Both the position numbers and the translations under genes were made by a program. The notes beneath the pieces were generated by a model that ran no database searches, was not told the DNA's origin, and worked only from the letters and a program-made list of their open reading frames with translations. Source: Candidatus Nealsoniibacteriota bacterium (GTDB taxonomy: Bacteria; Patescibacteriota; Minisyncoccia; Minisyncoccales; PWPS01). Taken from it: a stretch of DNA of 49,628 nucleotides. Location: NCBI GenBank assembly GCA_003555075.1, contig PWHW01000002.1, positions 160,210 through 209,837 of the forward strand, read 5' to 3'. Of the stretch, positions 7,666-21,411 are shown piece after piece. Position 1 is the first letter of the stretch. Each line of letters opens with the position of its first letter.

Positions 7666-8329
7666 GTGGGAAAAGGAGTTAAGGGAGGTCGTTAGCAAAG
7701 AGCTTTTTTGTTCTGCTCACAAGATGGATCATATAGAAAGAGTTTACGATCTTTGTCTTGTTTTGGCCGAAGGGGAGTCGGTTAATATTGATGTTCTCAA
7801 GGCGGCAGCATTATTGCATGATATTGCAAGAGTAAAAGAGGATAATGACCCCACTGGCGAAACAGATCATGCAAAAGAGGGTGCCAAGATGGCAAAGGAT
7901 ATCTTAAGGAAAAAAAGTTTTCCCGAAGAAAGCGTGAAACACGTTGAAGAATGTATTATCTCTCACAGGTACAGAAGTAATGAGGTTGCAGTTTCCAAGG
8001 AGGCCAAGATCCTTTTTGATGCCGACAAGCTGGACAATATCGGGGCCATTGGAGTTGCTCGTGCCTTTGTTTGGGTCGGAAAGAATAACGCTCTTATTTT
8101 TAACAAAGAAGACTCGGATGATTATACAAAGAGTAATCTGCACGGAGGGAAAAAAGGAAGGATAAAAGATGCTTCAAAGCATAGTCCTCAAATGGAATAT
8201 GAGACAAAGACCAAATTCTTGATCGACAAGATGTATACTAAAAAAGGAAGAGAAATGGCAAAAGAAAGGATGAGTTTTTATGAAGACTTCCTAAATAGAC
8301 TTGAAAAAGAAATAAGAGGGGAAATATAG
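7652..8329 (+). CDS. HD-domain metal-dependent phosphohydrolase
   Basis: This 225-aa protein is a YedJ-type HD hydrolase. The metal-binding residues are visible in order: H in HKMDHIERV (about 23-31), the HD dyad in AALLHDIAR (56-57), a conserved His in ECIISHRYR, and D in LFDADKLDNIGAIGVAR. Such proteins hydrolyse nucleotides or phosphoesters; the substrate cannot be assigned. Family length is about 200-230 aa, so the gene is complete. The ATG at 7652 follows an A-rich leader without a Shine-Dalgarno sequence. Confidence 0.9.
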   Translation: MERTKWEKELREVVSKELFCSAHKMDHIERVYDLCLVLAEGESVNIDVLKAAALLHDIARVKEDNDPTGETDHAKEGAKMAKDILRKKSFPEESVKHVEECIISHRYRSNEVAVSKEAKILFDADKLDNIGAIGVARAFVWVGKNNALIFNKEDSDDYTKSNLHGGKKGRIKDASKHSPQMEYETKTKFLIDKMYTKKGREMAKERMSFYEDFLNRLEKEIRGEI

Positions 8330-8345
8330 AGATCATTCGTAAAAA

Positions 8346-8483
8346 ATGATAATAAAATATTTCATATACAAAAGAATAAGAAAATATTTAGCGGAAAGAA
8401 AAAAAGGAAATAAAAAGAAAGAAATGTACCCGGCACAAAAAGATATCAGTATTTTTAAGAGAACAAGAGGCGGGATTCTATGA
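8346..8483 (+). CDS. Possible small basic protein coupled to the GNAT gene (45 aa)
   Basis: An ATG frame of 45 codons fills the gap between the HD and GNAT genes and ends in an exact ATGA overlap with the GNAT start codon, the arrangement typical of translational coupling. The product is basic (YKRIRKYLAERKKGNKKKE) with a possibly folded end, MYPAQKDISIFKRT. It is below the length limit of the ORF track. No family recognised. The overlap is the main evidence; composition alone would not be enough. Confidence 0.35.
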   Translation: MIIKYFIYKRIRKYLAERKKGNKKKEMYPAQKDISIFKRTRGGIL

Positions 8484-9595: not shown

Positions 9596-9668
9596 GCGGC
9601 GGTAGCTCAGTTGGTAGAGCATCTGCTTCCCAAGCAGAAGATCGCGGGTTCGAGCCCCGTCCGCCGCT
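9596..9668 (+). tRNA. tRNA-Gly, anticodon CCC
   Basis: A full cloverleaf is present: acceptor GCGGCGG/CCGCCGC, D arm GCTC/GAGC with AGTTGGTA loop, anticodon arm TCTGC/GCAGA with loop TTCCCAA (anticodon CCC), and T arm with TTCGAGC. The discriminator base is T, usual for bacterial tRNA-Gly. The 3' CCA is not encoded (TCAA follows the acceptor stem), so it must be added by CCA transferase. Confidence 0.97.
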
Positions 9669-9711
9669 CAATGCTTTAATTTTATTCTCATCTTATTTAC
9701 TCTGATAAAAA

Positions 9712-9936
9712 ATGAAGATTTTTGTTACCGTTAAGTGCAACGCAAGGAAGGAGATCGTTGAAAGGATCGACGAAGATCATTTTAAAATTTCGGTAAAGGA
9801 GTCGCCTCTCAAAGGAAGAGCTAATGATGCAGTAAAAAAACTTTTAGCAAAACACATTGATATCTTGCCCGATCATCTAAAGATCGTTTCGGGGAAAAGT
9901 TCTTCCAAAAAAGTGATTAAAACAATCAGTAGGTAA
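9712..9936 (+). CDS. YggU/DUF167 family protein
   Basis: This 74-aa protein matches the YggU (DUF167) family: the N-terminal strand KIFVTVKCNARKE, then the signature VKESPLKGRANDAVKKLLAKHI and the end LKIVSGKSSSKKVIKTI. The family is widespread and its function is unknown. Length is typical. It follows the tRNA by 43 bases and converges with the minus-strand gene at 9964. Confidence 0.93.
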   Translation: MKIFVTVKCNARKEIVERIDEDHFKISVKESPLKGRANDAVKKLLAKHIDILPDHLKIVSGKSSSKKVIKTISR

Positions 9937-9942
9937 ATTATC

Positions 9943-9976
9943 AAAAAGAAAAAAGGAGGTTTACTAGCCCTCCTTT
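9943..9976 (-). terminator. Terminator between convergent genes (9712 and 9964)
   Basis: An 8-bp stem AAAGGAGG/CCTCCTTT with a 9-base loop overlaps the stop codon of the minus-strand gene. On the minus strand it is followed by a long T-rich run (complement of AAAAAGAAAAA), so it mainly terminates that gene; on the plus strand the T tail is weak. Confidence 0.75.
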
Positions 9977-10164
9977 ATATGTTGCTTTAACATTGATTTT
10001 AGATCTTCTAAATTCTCTTCTTTTCTTTTCTCGATCCTTTTCCACATTTCCGTACAATCTTGGCATTGATCGGCATCATTCTTGTATTTTCCCTTTATCC
10101 TCCACAAACTTTTGTGCTCTTCAATAAGTTGATTTGTTAAATTATACAGATGGTCGTCAAACAT
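9964..10164 (-). CDS. Small conserved protein of Parcubacteria type, unknown
   Basis: This 66-aa protein is helical and hydrophilic, with LTNQLIEEHKSLWRIKGKY near the N-terminus and a C-x2-C pair in DQCQDCTEMW. From memory, short proteins with the same EEHKSLWRIK core and Cys pair are common in Parcubacteria, where they are annotated as hypothetical; this is recollection, not a search result. The single Cys pair could bind metal on dimerisation. It is transcribed against its neighbours and has its own terminator. Confidence 0.8.
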   Translation of the reverse strand: MFDDHLYNLTNQLIEEHKSLWRIKGKYKNDADQCQDCTEMWKRIEKRKEENLEDLKSMLKQHIKEG

Positions 10165-10234
10165 TTTAATAAAAGCTTGATTTATAGACAGACCTTTTAA
10201 ATGATCCCAAAAGTTATATGATTTTTTTGCTTTC

Positions 10235-17238: not shown

Positions 17239-17697
17239 ATGAATAAAAATATATTAGCCATATTAATTGGAGCTGTTATTATTTTGGCAGCGTTCTATTT
17301 TGCCGCTCTTCCGGAGGAAAGAATAGATACAACAAACAATAATGTGACAGAAGAAGAGGATGGTGAAGAAAGGGAGGAAGATGAGGTGGTAGAGAACGAA
17401 GAGAGTATCAGTGAAGATGATGTAGACATAACAGAAGATTTCATTAGTTGCTTAGAGGAGAAAGGAGTGGTCATTTATGGCAGTAAGTTCTGCCCCGCTT
17501 GCACAATGATGGTAGAATCTCTCGGAGGTCATGAAATGGCAGAACCGGTATATGTGGAATGTACGGAAGAAGAAGCGAGGTGTGACGAGGAAATGGAAGG
17601 AGGAGCGGTTCCTGAGATACAGATAGAAGGAGAGGTCTTTAAAGTGGGTGCGATTGCTCCCGAAGTTCTTGCCAAAGAAACAAATTGCGAATTATAA
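17239..17697 (+). CDS. Membrane-anchored thioredoxin-like protein (CPAC)
   Basis: This 152-aa protein has an N-terminal membrane helix (about 4-23), an acidic linker to residue 65 and a thioredoxin/glutaredoxin-like domain with the redox motif CPAC (85-88) in VVIYGSKFCPACTMM and the cis-proline in GGAVPEIQI (Pro125). Four additional cysteines (71, 108, 115, 150) are present. The domain would face outwards and receive electrons through the CcdA-like protein encoded 18 bases downstream. It resembles the lumenal thioredoxin domain of VKOR fusions, but no VKOR part is present. Confidence 0.85.
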   Translation: MNKNILAILIGAVIILAAFYFAALPEERIDTTNNNVTEEEDGEEREEDEVVENEESISEDDVDITEDFISCLEEKGVVIYGSKFCPACTMMVESLGGHEMAEPVYVECTEEEARCDEEMEGGAVPEIQIEGEVFKVGAIAPEVLAKETNCEL

Positions 17698-17715
17698 GAT
17701 TAAGCGGTTGCCGTT

Positions 17716-18885
17716 ATGAAAAAGAAGGGAATTCTTTTGATCCTTTTTTTTCTCTTTATGGCACTCCCTTTTTTCGTCATCGGAGAAGGGGATAGCGATA
17801 AAGATTCTAAAGGATCACTTCTTATAGATGAAGAAAGATTGGAGGAAGAGGTCGTTATTCATTTCTTTGATGATAGGCTTTGCCCTGTTTGCCAGAAGGC
17901 GAAGGATTATGCAAAGGAATTGGATGAGAGATATACTCAAGTAAGCTTGGAGCTTTACTCCATCACTGAAACGGAAAAATTGCATCAATTGGCCGATGAA
18001 AGGGGAGTTGAGGACTATGACATCATGGCTCCCACCATTTTCATCGGGGATAGTTTTCTTCAGTTTGCAAGTTTTTCCGAGAGGCATGAAAAAATGATGG
18101 TTGATGCCATTAAAGGAGAGGCAGTAGAAGAAGATTGTTGTATAATCGAGGTTCCTTTTTTGAATATAGAGGTAGATACAAGTGAGTGGTCTCTGGGTCT
18201 TGCCGCGGTAGTTCTTGGAACAGTGGACGGGTTCAATGTGTGCTCCATAGGAGCTCTCATGTTGATACTTTCCATGGTTCTTATGTTTGACTCCAAGAAG
18301 AAGATACTCTTTTTCGGAGGACTTTTTATTGTTACGGCTGTCATAGTATATGGAATACTGGTTTTTGCTTGGGGGTGGCTTCTCAACGTTCTGGTGAAGG
18401 AGATGGAACTTCTGCGAGCGATCATAGGTGTTGCGGCACTGGGAGGAGGTGCTTATTTCTTTAGAGAGTTTCTGCGATTCTATAGGCATGGACCGACTTG
18501 TAAGTCTTCGGAGTCAGCTTTGGCCCAGAAGGCTACCGAAAAATTGAAGAAATCTTTTCAGGATCCCAAAAAGGGGATGTGGTATTTGGCTCTTTCGGTC
18601 ATGTCGTTCGCAGCAATAATTACTTTAGTAGAACTTCCTTGCTCCATAGGGATACCTCTTACCTTTTCGGGAATATTGGCAGCTTCTGAAATATCTCTTG
18701 TTTCGTATATTCTTTATATAGCCATCTTCCTTTTCTTTTACATGCTCATTGAGCTCGTTATTTTTCTTGGAGCGGTATTTACCAAAGACATTTGGTTTGT
18801 AGGATCCAGAGTTATTACCTGGATAACGTTTGTTGGAGCAATGGTATTGTTCTATTTGGCGTTCTATTATTTACCGTTCTTTTAA
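17716..18885 (+). CDS. Thioredoxin-like domain fused to a CcdA/DsbD-type transmembrane electron carrier
   Basis: This 389-aa protein has a signal peptide (about 1-22), an extracytoplasmic thioredoxin-fold domain with CPVC (56-59) and cis-Pro in MAPTIFI, an acidic CC pair (141-142), and a polytopic membrane domain from about 160. The membrane part has the two single cysteines expected of the CcdA/DsbD core: Cys176 in GFNVCSIGA and Cys309 in ELPCSIGIP. It should move electrons from a cytoplasmic thioredoxin across the membrane to the outer thioredoxin domain. The next gene encodes a thioredoxin reductase, which fits. The fusion has the order reversed relative to E. coli DsbD, where the thioredoxin domain is C-terminal. 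Confidence 0.85.
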   Translation: MKKKGILLILFFLFMALPFFVIGEGDSDKDSKGSLLIDEERLEEEVVIHFFDDRLCPVCQKAKDYAKELDERYTQVSLELYSITETEKLHQLADERGVEDYDIMAPTIFIGDSFLQFASFSERHEKMMVDAIKGEAVEEDCCIIEVPFLNIEVDTSEWSLGLAAVVLGTVDGFNVCSIGALMLILSMVLMFDSKKKILFFGGLFIVTAVIVYGILVFAWGWLLNVLVKEMELLRAIIGVAALGGGAYFFREFLRFYRHGPTCKSSESALAQKATEKLKKSFQDPKKGMWYLALSVMSFAAIITLVELPCSIGIPLTFSGILAASEISLVSYILYIAIFLFFYMLIELVIFLGAVFTKDIWFVGSRVITWITFVGAMVLFYLAFYYLPFF

Positions 18886-18896
18886 TTAAAAAAATC

Positions 18897-19805
18897 ATGT
18901 ACGAATTAGTAATAATAGGAGGCGGCCCTGCAGGGATTACTGCCGGAATATATGCCGCAAGAAAAAAAATAAAGACCTTACTGATAACAAAGGATTTTTT
19001 GGGGCAAGCCGGTCTTACGGGAATTATTGAAAATTGGCCGGGGGAAAAAAAGATCAGCGGACCGGATCTCATGAGAAAATTTGAGGATCATCTCAAAGAG
19101 CATGATATTGATATAAAGGAAGGGGAGCAAGTATTTTCATTAAAAAAGAAAAAAAGATTCGTTGTATCTACGGAATGGGAGAGTATTGACGCAAAAGCGG
19201 TCATTGTTGCTACCGGAAGAAGACAAAAAAGGCTGGGGGTCAGAGGGGAAAAAGAGCTTACGGGTAAAGGAGTGGTTTATTGCACCACTTGTGATGCTCC
19301 TTTATTCAAGAACAAGAGTGTAGTTGTAGCAGGAGGGGGAAATGCCGGATTTGAAGCTGCCATTGAACTCACTGATCACGCGAAGAAAGTATTCCTTTTT
19401 GAGGGTGCCAACGATTTTAGCGCTGATGAGTTTTTGCAAGAACAAGCCAAGGAAAGAGGGGTAGAGTTATATACCGGAAGAACAATAGAAGAGATAAAAG
19501 GAGATAATTTTGTAGAAGAAGTTATTTACAATGATGCAGGCAACAAAGACAGAGACTCTATGAAAACCGAAGGCGTTTTTGTACAAATAGGATCTGTCGC
19601 TATAAATGATTTTTTAGATGACGAATTAGTGGATTTTGATAAGAATGGGGATATAATGATAGATCAAGGAAATTGCTTTACAAAGACCGAGGGGCTTCTT
19701 GCCGCCGGAGATGTTACTAACACAAGGGATAAGCAAATAATAGTTTCTTCGGGAGAGGGGGCCAAAGCAACTCTTTCTTTGTATGAATATCTAAAAAGAA
19801 AGTAA
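18897..19805 (+). CDS. trxB: Thioredoxin reductase (NADPH-type fold)
   Basis: The natural start is the ATG at 18897 (MYELVIIGGGPAG), not the longer track frame that runs back into the upstream gene; this gives 302 aa. The FAD motif GGGPAGITAGIYAAR is at the N-terminus, the redox motif is CTTC in GVVYCTTCDAPLF (canonical CATC or CAVC), the second dinucleotide-binding motif is AGGGNAGFEAA, and the C-terminal GLLAAGDVTNTRDKQIIVSSGEGAKA closes the FAD domain. It reduces thioredoxin or a related carrier, probably feeding the preceding CcdA-like protein. A cytoplasmic thioredoxin is not encoded here. A terminator follows. Confidence 0.94.
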   Translation: MYELVIIGGGPAGITAGIYAARKKIKTLLITKDFLGQAGLTGIIENWPGEKKISGPDLMRKFEDHLKEHDIDIKEGEQVFSLKKKKRFVVSTEWESIDAKAVIVATGRRQKRLGVRGEKELTGKGVVYCTTCDAPLFKNKSVVVAGGGNAGFEAAIELTDHAKKVFLFEGANDFSADEFLQEQAKERGVELYTGRTIEEIKGDNFVEEVIYNDAGNKDRDSMKTEGVFVQIGSVAINDFLDDELVDFDKNGDIMIDQGNCFTKTEGLLAAGDVTNTRDKQIIVSSGEGAKATLSLYEYLKRK

Positions 19806-19830
19806 TGATGGTATCAAGGATATAAAGAAA

Positions 19831-19859
19831 AATGACAGGAACAAGACCTGTCATTTTTT
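19831..19859. terminator. Terminator between trxB and the SpoIIID-like gene
   Basis: A perfect 9-bp stem AATGACAGG/CCTGTCATT with a 7-base loop and a T run on the plus strand; it overlaps the stop codon of the minus-strand gene and may serve both. Confidence 0.9.
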
Positions 19860-20096
19860 GTATTTTTTCTTTAAAGCCATCCCTCCTCTCTTAGACCTCA
19901 CTTCTTTATGATAATTTAGTAATTCCCTAACCTCTTTATAAAGATACGGATCGACATTTTTCAGTCTTTTGCTTACGTCAATATGGATCGTGGTTTTACT
20001 TACTTTCAAGATTTCCGCGGCTTTTCGGACAGTAAGGCGCTTCTCCACCATCAGATGTCCCGCCCGCTTGACTCTCTCATAGCAATCTTCTTTCAC
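19851..20096 (-). CDS. spoIIID: SpoIIID-like helix-turn-helix transcription factor
   Basis: This 81-aa protein aligns along its length with Bacillus SpoIIID as I remember it: an N-terminal helix, the HTH LTVRKAAEILKVSKTTIHIDVSKRL, the stretch VDPYLYKEVRELLNYHKEVRSKRGG and the basic end LKKKYKK. In B. subtilis the regulator acts in the mother cell with sigma-E and uses both the HTH and the C-terminal basic tail to bind DNA. No other sporulation regulator is visible, so a sporulation role is not implied. The start is GTG with a strong Shine-Dalgarno sequence (AAGGAGGGGG). It is the second gene of a minus-strand pair, 19 bases after an unknown gene. Confidence 0.87.
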   Translation of the reverse strand: MKEDCYERVKRAGHLMVEKRLTVRKAAEILKVSKTTIHIDVSKRLKNVDPYLYKEVRELLNYHKEVRSKRGGMALKKKYKK

Positions 20097-20115
20097 AGAA
20101 CCCCCTCCTTTTTCG

Positions 20116-20655
20116 CTAAACCTCCAGAGCCTTTCTGGTAATCAGGCTCATTGTGTCGTATTTGGCACTCATTAGATATCCTATTTCTTTGCCACTTATT
20201 CCGTAGAATGTGTGGTAAAAATTTCTTCCCAAAAGAGAATAATCTTTGAGAGTCATTGTTCTTCTATGGGCCCTTCCTATGAATACGGTGCAAATAAGAA
20301 AGCATACATCCCCAGCTCTTTGCCAGCTCAAATAATCGTTCATGTCCTCTACTTGTGAGAGATAGTCTATAGCGTAAAAACTGGGTAAAGGGTCTTTTAC
20401 GGTACTGGAGATCGTTTTTGCAATATACTTTCCGCAGAGAAAGAAGTCGGATTCCAGATGATTCTCCGTGATCAAGACCCCGGAGATCCTCTTTTCTATC
20501 ATTTTTTCCAGCTCATCGAAGTCTGCAAGCAATAGCTTCTCGCCGACAACTCTCTCTTTTTCTTTTTGCATTCTTTGCGCTTCCTTCATTAATTCTGAAA
20601 GTGTCCTTCTAAAGGATGCCTTTTTGAGATTTTTAAAGTGCAGAATATCTCCCAA
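20116..20655 (-). CDS. Unknown protein in operon with the SpoIIID-like regulator
   Basis: The best start is TTG at 20655, 6 bases after a 10-base Shine-Dalgarno match; the track start at 20700 would place that site inside the gene. The 179-aa product has an N-terminal basic, helical part (FRRTLSELMKEAQRMQKEKERVV) and a C-terminal part with a hydrophobic core (AGDVCFLICTVFIGRAHRR) and SGKEIGYLMSAKYDTM. No signal peptide and no family I recognise. Its pairing with a SpoIIID-like regulator and the shared, well-defined promoter suggest a regulatory function, for example a partner or sensor. Confidence 0.75.
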   Translation of the reverse strand: MGDILHFKNLKKASFRRTLSELMKEAQRMQKEKERVVGEKLLLADFDELEKMIEKRISGVLITENHLESDFFLCGKYIAKTISSTVKDPLPSFYAIDYLSQVEDMNDYLSWQRAGDVCFLICTVFIGRAHRRTMTLKDYSLLGRNFYHTFYGISGKEIGYLMSAKYDTMSLITRKALEV

Positions 20656-20661
20656 CTTAAA

Positions 20662-20671
20662 CACCTCCTTT
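20662..20671 (-). promoter_or_regulatory. Strong Shine-Dalgarno sequence setting a TTG start
   Basis: On the minus strand AAAGGAGGTG lies 6 bases before TTG at 20655. This fixes the start of the unknown gene downstream of the ORF-track start. Confidence 0.8.
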
Positions 20672-20687
20672 TTGTGTAATGCTTGCA

Positions 20688-20716
20688 TATTTAACACCAC
20701 TTGTTATTTTTGTCAA
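20688..20716 (-). promoter_or_regulatory. Promoter of the unknown gene-spoIIID operon
   Basis: On the minus strand a perfect TTGACA (20716-20711) is followed after 17 bases by TAAATA (20693-20688), which is preceded by an extended -10 TGT. The predicted leader is about 26 bases long. Confidence 0.82.
20699..20708 (-). promoter_or_regulatory. Possible SpoIIID-type binding site inside its own promoter
   Basis: Between the -35 and -10 boxes the minus strand reads AATAACAAGT, which fits 9 of 10 positions of the Bacillus SpoIIID consensus WWRRACARNY. Such a short site occurs often by chance; position is the only support, and it would mean autorepression. Confidence 0.25.
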
Positions 20717-20811: not shown

Positions 20812-21411
20812 ATGAGTAAAATATTTCTTGCCACGCGAAATAAATACAAAGAAAAACAATTCTCTTATTTATTAAAGGATACGGGAATTGATATTGTGAC
20901 GATCACGGAATACGGTTTCAAGGAATCTCCGGATGAGGACGGGCTCACGGCAAGAGAAAACGCTCTTCTAAAGGCTCGTTTTTGGGTCAGAAGGTCGGGC
21001 CTTCCGACTCTGGCAGATGATGCGGGGCTGGAAGTGGATGCTTTAAACGGAGAACCGGGGGTAAAAGCAAGAAGATGGGGAGGGAGATTTCCCGATGATG
21101 TAAGCGACGAAGAGTGGCTCGATTATCTTTTAGAAAGAATGAAAGGGATTCCTTTTAGCAGGAGAACAGCACTATACAGGGCTGCTTGGGCACTGGTTCT
21201 ACCCAATAAGAAAGAGTATGTGAGAGATATAAAATTGAAATTTATCATACTCAAAGAACCGAAAAGAGGATATTCTCTGGGCTCTCCGATGAGCGCAGTA
21301 AGGTATTTTCCCGAGTATGGCAAAGTTGAGAACGAATTAACAGAAAAAGAGCAATGGGAGGAGCTTTATAGGGAAATGAAAGGTTTTGATATTCCAAGCA
21401 AGATCCGATGA
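20812..21411 (+). CDS. HAM1/RdgB-type nucleoside triphosphate pyrophosphatase, divergent (copy 2)
   Basis: The start is set at ATG 20812 (MSKIFLATRNKYK), which has a TAAGGAG Shine-Dalgarno sequence; the longer track frame adds an unlikely 20-residue extension. The 199-aa protein has the HAM1 core: ATRNKYKEKQF, ESPDEDGLTARENALLKA, and LADDAGLEVDALNGEPGVKARRWGG, which is closer to the classical sequence than in copy 1. Downstream it departs: the FGYDP region reads RGYSLGSPMSAVRYFP and the SHRxxA motif is absent. Activity on another modified nucleotide is possible. Its stop overlaps the start of the HDAC-family gene (ATGA). Confidence 0.85.
   Translation: MSKIFLATRNKYKEKQFSYLLKDTGIDIVTITEYGFKESPDEDGLTARENALLKARFWVRRSGLPTLADDAGLEVDALNGEPGVKARRWGGRFPDDVSDEEWLDYLLERMKGIPFSRRTALYRAAWALVLPNKKEYVRDIKLKFIILKEPKRGYSLGSPMSAVRYFPEYGKVENELTEKEQWEELYREMKGFDIPSKIR

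Follow-up and report, generated by a model that had tools for sequence, protein, structure and literature searches.

SpoIIID is counted in the core sporulation set (PMC3533761), and phages of gut spore-formers have been reported to carry spoIIID homologues (PHROG 11726; PMC10294663), an instance of the family travelling beyond the sporulation clusters of the chromosome. Our search of open-licence papers found none in which SpoIIID appears alongside Patescibacteria, Parcubacteria or the candidate phyla radiation (CPR). The gene analysed here lies in a 49,628-nt stretch of a Candidatus Nealsoniibacteriota genome (the window), downstream of an uncharacterised gene on the same strand (Table 1). 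Taken together, our results describe real homology in an unusual host, of an otherwise ordinary kind: a rare HTH regulator that was probably transferred.

Table 1. Features of the two-gene locus and its convergent neighbour, in window coordinates
Feature	Position	Strand	Basis or remarks
trxB-like gene, convergent flanking neighbour	18897..19805	-> (+)	pair absent beside the trxB-like gene in relatives examined
Bidirectional stem-loop terminator, common to the pair and the convergent trxB-like gene	19827..19859	(.)	closes the two-gene unit
SpoIIID-family HTH DNA-binding protein, 81 aa, GTG start	19851..20096	(-)	PF12116, TIGR02844 and 2L0K matches; HTH and RGG/basic C-terminus
Ribosome-binding site of SpoIIID-like gene, AAGGAGG, inside the 19-nt gap	20104..20113	(-)	sequence inspection
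Uncharacterised all-helical protein, 179 aa, TTG start	20116..20655	(-)	no Pfam, NCBIfam, PHROG or PADLOC assignment; orphan family with distant Legionella relative
Ribosome-binding site of 179-aa gene, AGGAGGT region	20661..20668	(-)	sequence inspection
Putative promoter TTGACA - 17 nt - TAAATA, TGn extension, weak -10	20687..20716	(-)	sequence inspection

The 81-aa protein resembles B. subtilis SpoIIID in length, in its HTH and in its RGG motif and basic C-terminal region, and is 47% identical to it, being alignable across residues 6-81. A Pfam profile search matched it to PF12116 at 79.7 bits (E=1.8e-22), passing the gathering cut-off of 27 across the domain (positions 5-80 of 82), and the closest solved structure is the NMR structure of B. 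subtilis SpoIIID (2L0K, E=8e-16). Judged by these alignments, the homology is far outside chance, which bears out the first-pass annotation in its reading of the product as a SpoIIID match that includes the HTH and the C-terminal region. On the other hand, with TIGR02844, the model by which NCBI names true SpoIIID, the protein scores 69.6 bits (E=2.1e-19), 42 bits short of the equivalog cut-off of 111.5; this line is a soft one, because a genuine Ruminococcus SpoIIID scores 110.6 and also falls just below it.

The residues tell a similar story. An alignment of about 80 Bacillota SpoIIIDs has 34 columns with conservation of 90% or more; of these near-invariant residues the protein keeps 26, including T22, R24, S33, K34, H38, D40, R44, R67, R70-G71-G72, K78 and Y79, while the positions changed include G31 (G31K), K39 (K39I), H68 (H68S) and T75. 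By our reading, the HTH turn carries G31K, the recognition helix carries K39I, and H68S immediately precedes the RGG. Given its profile matches and these losses, the protein, full-length and with an intact frame, is a genuine but divergent member of the SpoIIID family, and its DNA specificity may have shifted.

The host differs from B. subtilis as well. Its genome is a draft in 12 contigs, 0.61 Mb in size and rated 100% complete, and those of its relatives are mostly 0.3-1.0 Mb, sizes that suggest a CPR affiliation. We judged the sporulation setting that belongs to the SpoIIID equivalog by a Spo0A_C search of the protein's own genome, which gave no match; a control search detects Spo0A_C in B. 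subtilis. The claim that a SpoIIID-family regulator sits in a small, CPR-like genome where no sporulation is expected thus holds. Intact SpoIIID copies in reduced, non-sporulating genomes show that its DNA-binding part is able to move to other settings and be retained there, and they make the presence of SpoIIID alone an unsafe indicator of sporulation.

Such genes are rare among the relatives of the host. A full-length match above the Pfam cut-off was found in 2/243 genomes of the order, the own genome and that of a member of the same family (G011), and the two proteins are 37% identical. In a sample of 380 genomes of the phylum, three had a PF12116 match above the cut-off: the own genome, G341, which holds the sole additional near-full-length match, and G400, where the match is a partial HTH inside a 436-aa frame. 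The G341 SpoIIID (114 bits with PF12116) is on a contig (C40) full of short phage-like ORFs, and that contig may well be Bacillota phage contamination. When one genome from each of 85,462 species was searched, with a pattern step that requires a conserved HTH stretch and with very near records perhaps left out, the best 80 matches to the window protein were all from Bacillota except for one MAG; they were led by Ruminococcus and other Oscillospiraceae at 52% identity, the highest value seen. In a tree of 84 SpoIIID sequences the window copy stayed unplaced, on a branch of maximum length outside every starred clade, and the G011 copy was also unplaced and not joined to it. Because the tree leaves the window protein without a position, we can only infer the donor and the direction of transfer.

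The two copies occupy different sites. The G011 gene stands alone: encoded on the opposite strand, it has a DUF1858-like gene to one side and thiI to the other (region L131, 2600-4300). In seven further family genomes, including the window's own, these two genes are adjacent with no SpoIIID-like gene between them. The thiI of G011 shares 62-64% identity with the thiI of G011 congeners, so this contig is native. At the site of the window copy, next to the trxB-like gene, no relative examined has a SpoIIID-like gene or the pair. Since the G011 copy parts two usual neighbours and the window copy sits elsewhere, the two are probably separate gains, that is, two acquisitions; a single gain followed by relocation is the possible alternative.

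The Bacillota origin of nearly all the best 80 matches, the rarity within the order and the placing of the G011 gene between usual neighbours together favour horizontal acquisition. We consider it likely that an HTH protein was acquired from Bacillota or their phages, settled behind a resident orphan gene and became a local regulator unlinked to sporulation. A phage route is plausible, because gut phages have been reported to carry spoIIID and fecal phage contigs hold SpoIIID copies. At the same time, these copies share no more than 38-43% identity with the window protein, we identified no phage genes next to the window copy, and a viral-contig scan with the 81-aa protein gave no match. The G+C content of the gene (39.4%) equals that of the window (38.9%), so composition gives no sign of a recent foreign origin.

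In the favoured account, Bacillota or one of their phages would have passed a SpoIIID-family gene horizontally to this bacterium with its reduced genome, where the gene lodged behind the resident 179-aa gene. By analogy with the family, its product most likely binds DNA, and would do so at short sites through the HTH and the basic C-terminal region, with SpoIIID-like biochemistry; it would regulate nearby transcription, perhaps that of its own operon, in a role unconnected with sporulation. A search for an operator found none. The SpoIIID consensus, WWRRACARNY, shows no enrichment across the window (31 occurrences, 38 expected). AACAAG is found three times in the region upstream of the operon (local Poisson P=6e-4); we dropped it as an operator, since comparably rare repeated hexamers are common (177/635 windows hold one).

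The operon itself was largely as the first-pass annotation had described it. An unknown 179-aa gene and the 81-aa gene are both present and adjacent, with a 19-nt gap from the first to the second, and the ribosome sites are as strong as claimed, AGGAGGT lying 7 nt ahead of the TTG at 20655 and AAGGAGG 7 nt ahead of the GTG at 20096. The promoter had been called near-consensus, which suits the perfect -35 (TTGACA) but overstates the -10: TAAATA, at 17 bp spacing and after a TGn, agrees with TATAAT at only three of six positions, and a consensus promoter scan did not list this promoter. We infer that the two genes are co-transcribed. The trxB-like gene is part of a possible redox cluster (17239-19805), in which two membrane or secreted CPxC-motif proteins are followed by this thioredoxin reductase-like gene. 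On the other side lies a Ham1-like (XTP pyrophosphatase) gene (20812-21411); G013 holds its sole close relative within the family (67%), and another Ham1-like paralogue, 33% identical, is found in the own genome (G000:C5:162287-162835).

This layout, in which the gap is tight, both ribosome sites are strong and a single terminator and a single likely promoter serve the two genes, would fit a dedicated two-gene module in which a helical effector or sensor and a SpoIIID-like regulator are reused outside sporulation, as had been proposed. Both checks named in the first-pass annotation went against it, the TIGR02844 score with its soft cut-off and the neighbourhoods of relatives. We fetched 15 regions around homologues of the 179-aa gene, and none contained a SpoIIID-like ORF, with some of the regions ending at contig ends; three congeners and eleven further genomes of the same order or class have the unknown gene without a SpoIIID gene beside it, no other genome examined pairs the two, and the second SpoIIID-like copy, in G011, stands alone. 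Each of the two families thus occurs without the other, which leaves the module reading unsupported, and we regard it as unlikely. It is doubtful, too, that the SpoIIID-like protein was rewired in this non-sporulating host so that a sporulation part became a new regulator-effector circuit, controlling the helical partner or a switch of growth state. Under horizontal acquisition, the sharing of a transcript with the 179-aa gene would be a local accident of one species and not a conserved module.

Ancient vertical inheritance, with a SpoIIID-like regulator present in the CPR ancestor and then lost almost everywhere, would fit the long branches and a G+C content the same as that of the host. We hold it to be very unlikely, given that only two genomes of the order have the gene, at different loci and with such divergent proteins, and that in G011 it separates two genes adjacent in seven relatives. 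An assembly or binning artefact joining a Bacillota fragment to a CPR contig is highly improbable even in a draft genome, and even if the phage-like SpoIIID contig of G341 may be such a case in the same phylum, as the gene lies well within a 210-kb contig, its operon mate has its closest homologues in congeners and no Bacillota protein found exceeds 52% identity to it.

The 179-aa protein belongs to an independently distributed, all-helical orphan family, with homologues in 3/7 congeneric genomes (43-48% identity) and sporadically across the order and class. Matches to K-box, MazG, OspC and others were weak and are treated as noise; there was no tblastn match in plasmids or phages, and a viral-contig scan with the alignment of the family found none either. 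An earlier structure model, built on 4 sequences, could not be used (pLDDT 39), while a 16-sequence alignment gave a confident model that was all-helical (AF2 pLDDT 82, pTM 0.75) and matched no PDB or viral structure significantly. We expect a soluble helical protein with its own role, independent of the regulator. Through its G650 member the family is linked to an uncharacterised Legionella adelaidensis protein, EL206_RS08165, a distant homologue (hhalign probability 97%, E=6e-11 over 101 columns); the match is limited to the C-terminal 101 columns, and the Legionella gene differs in setting, standing alone between typA and hslO. In G801 (region L124), two near-alike copies of the partner family (7836-8402 and 9640-10206) lie on either side of a gene whose start is RhuM-like and which contains a Fic-type motif.
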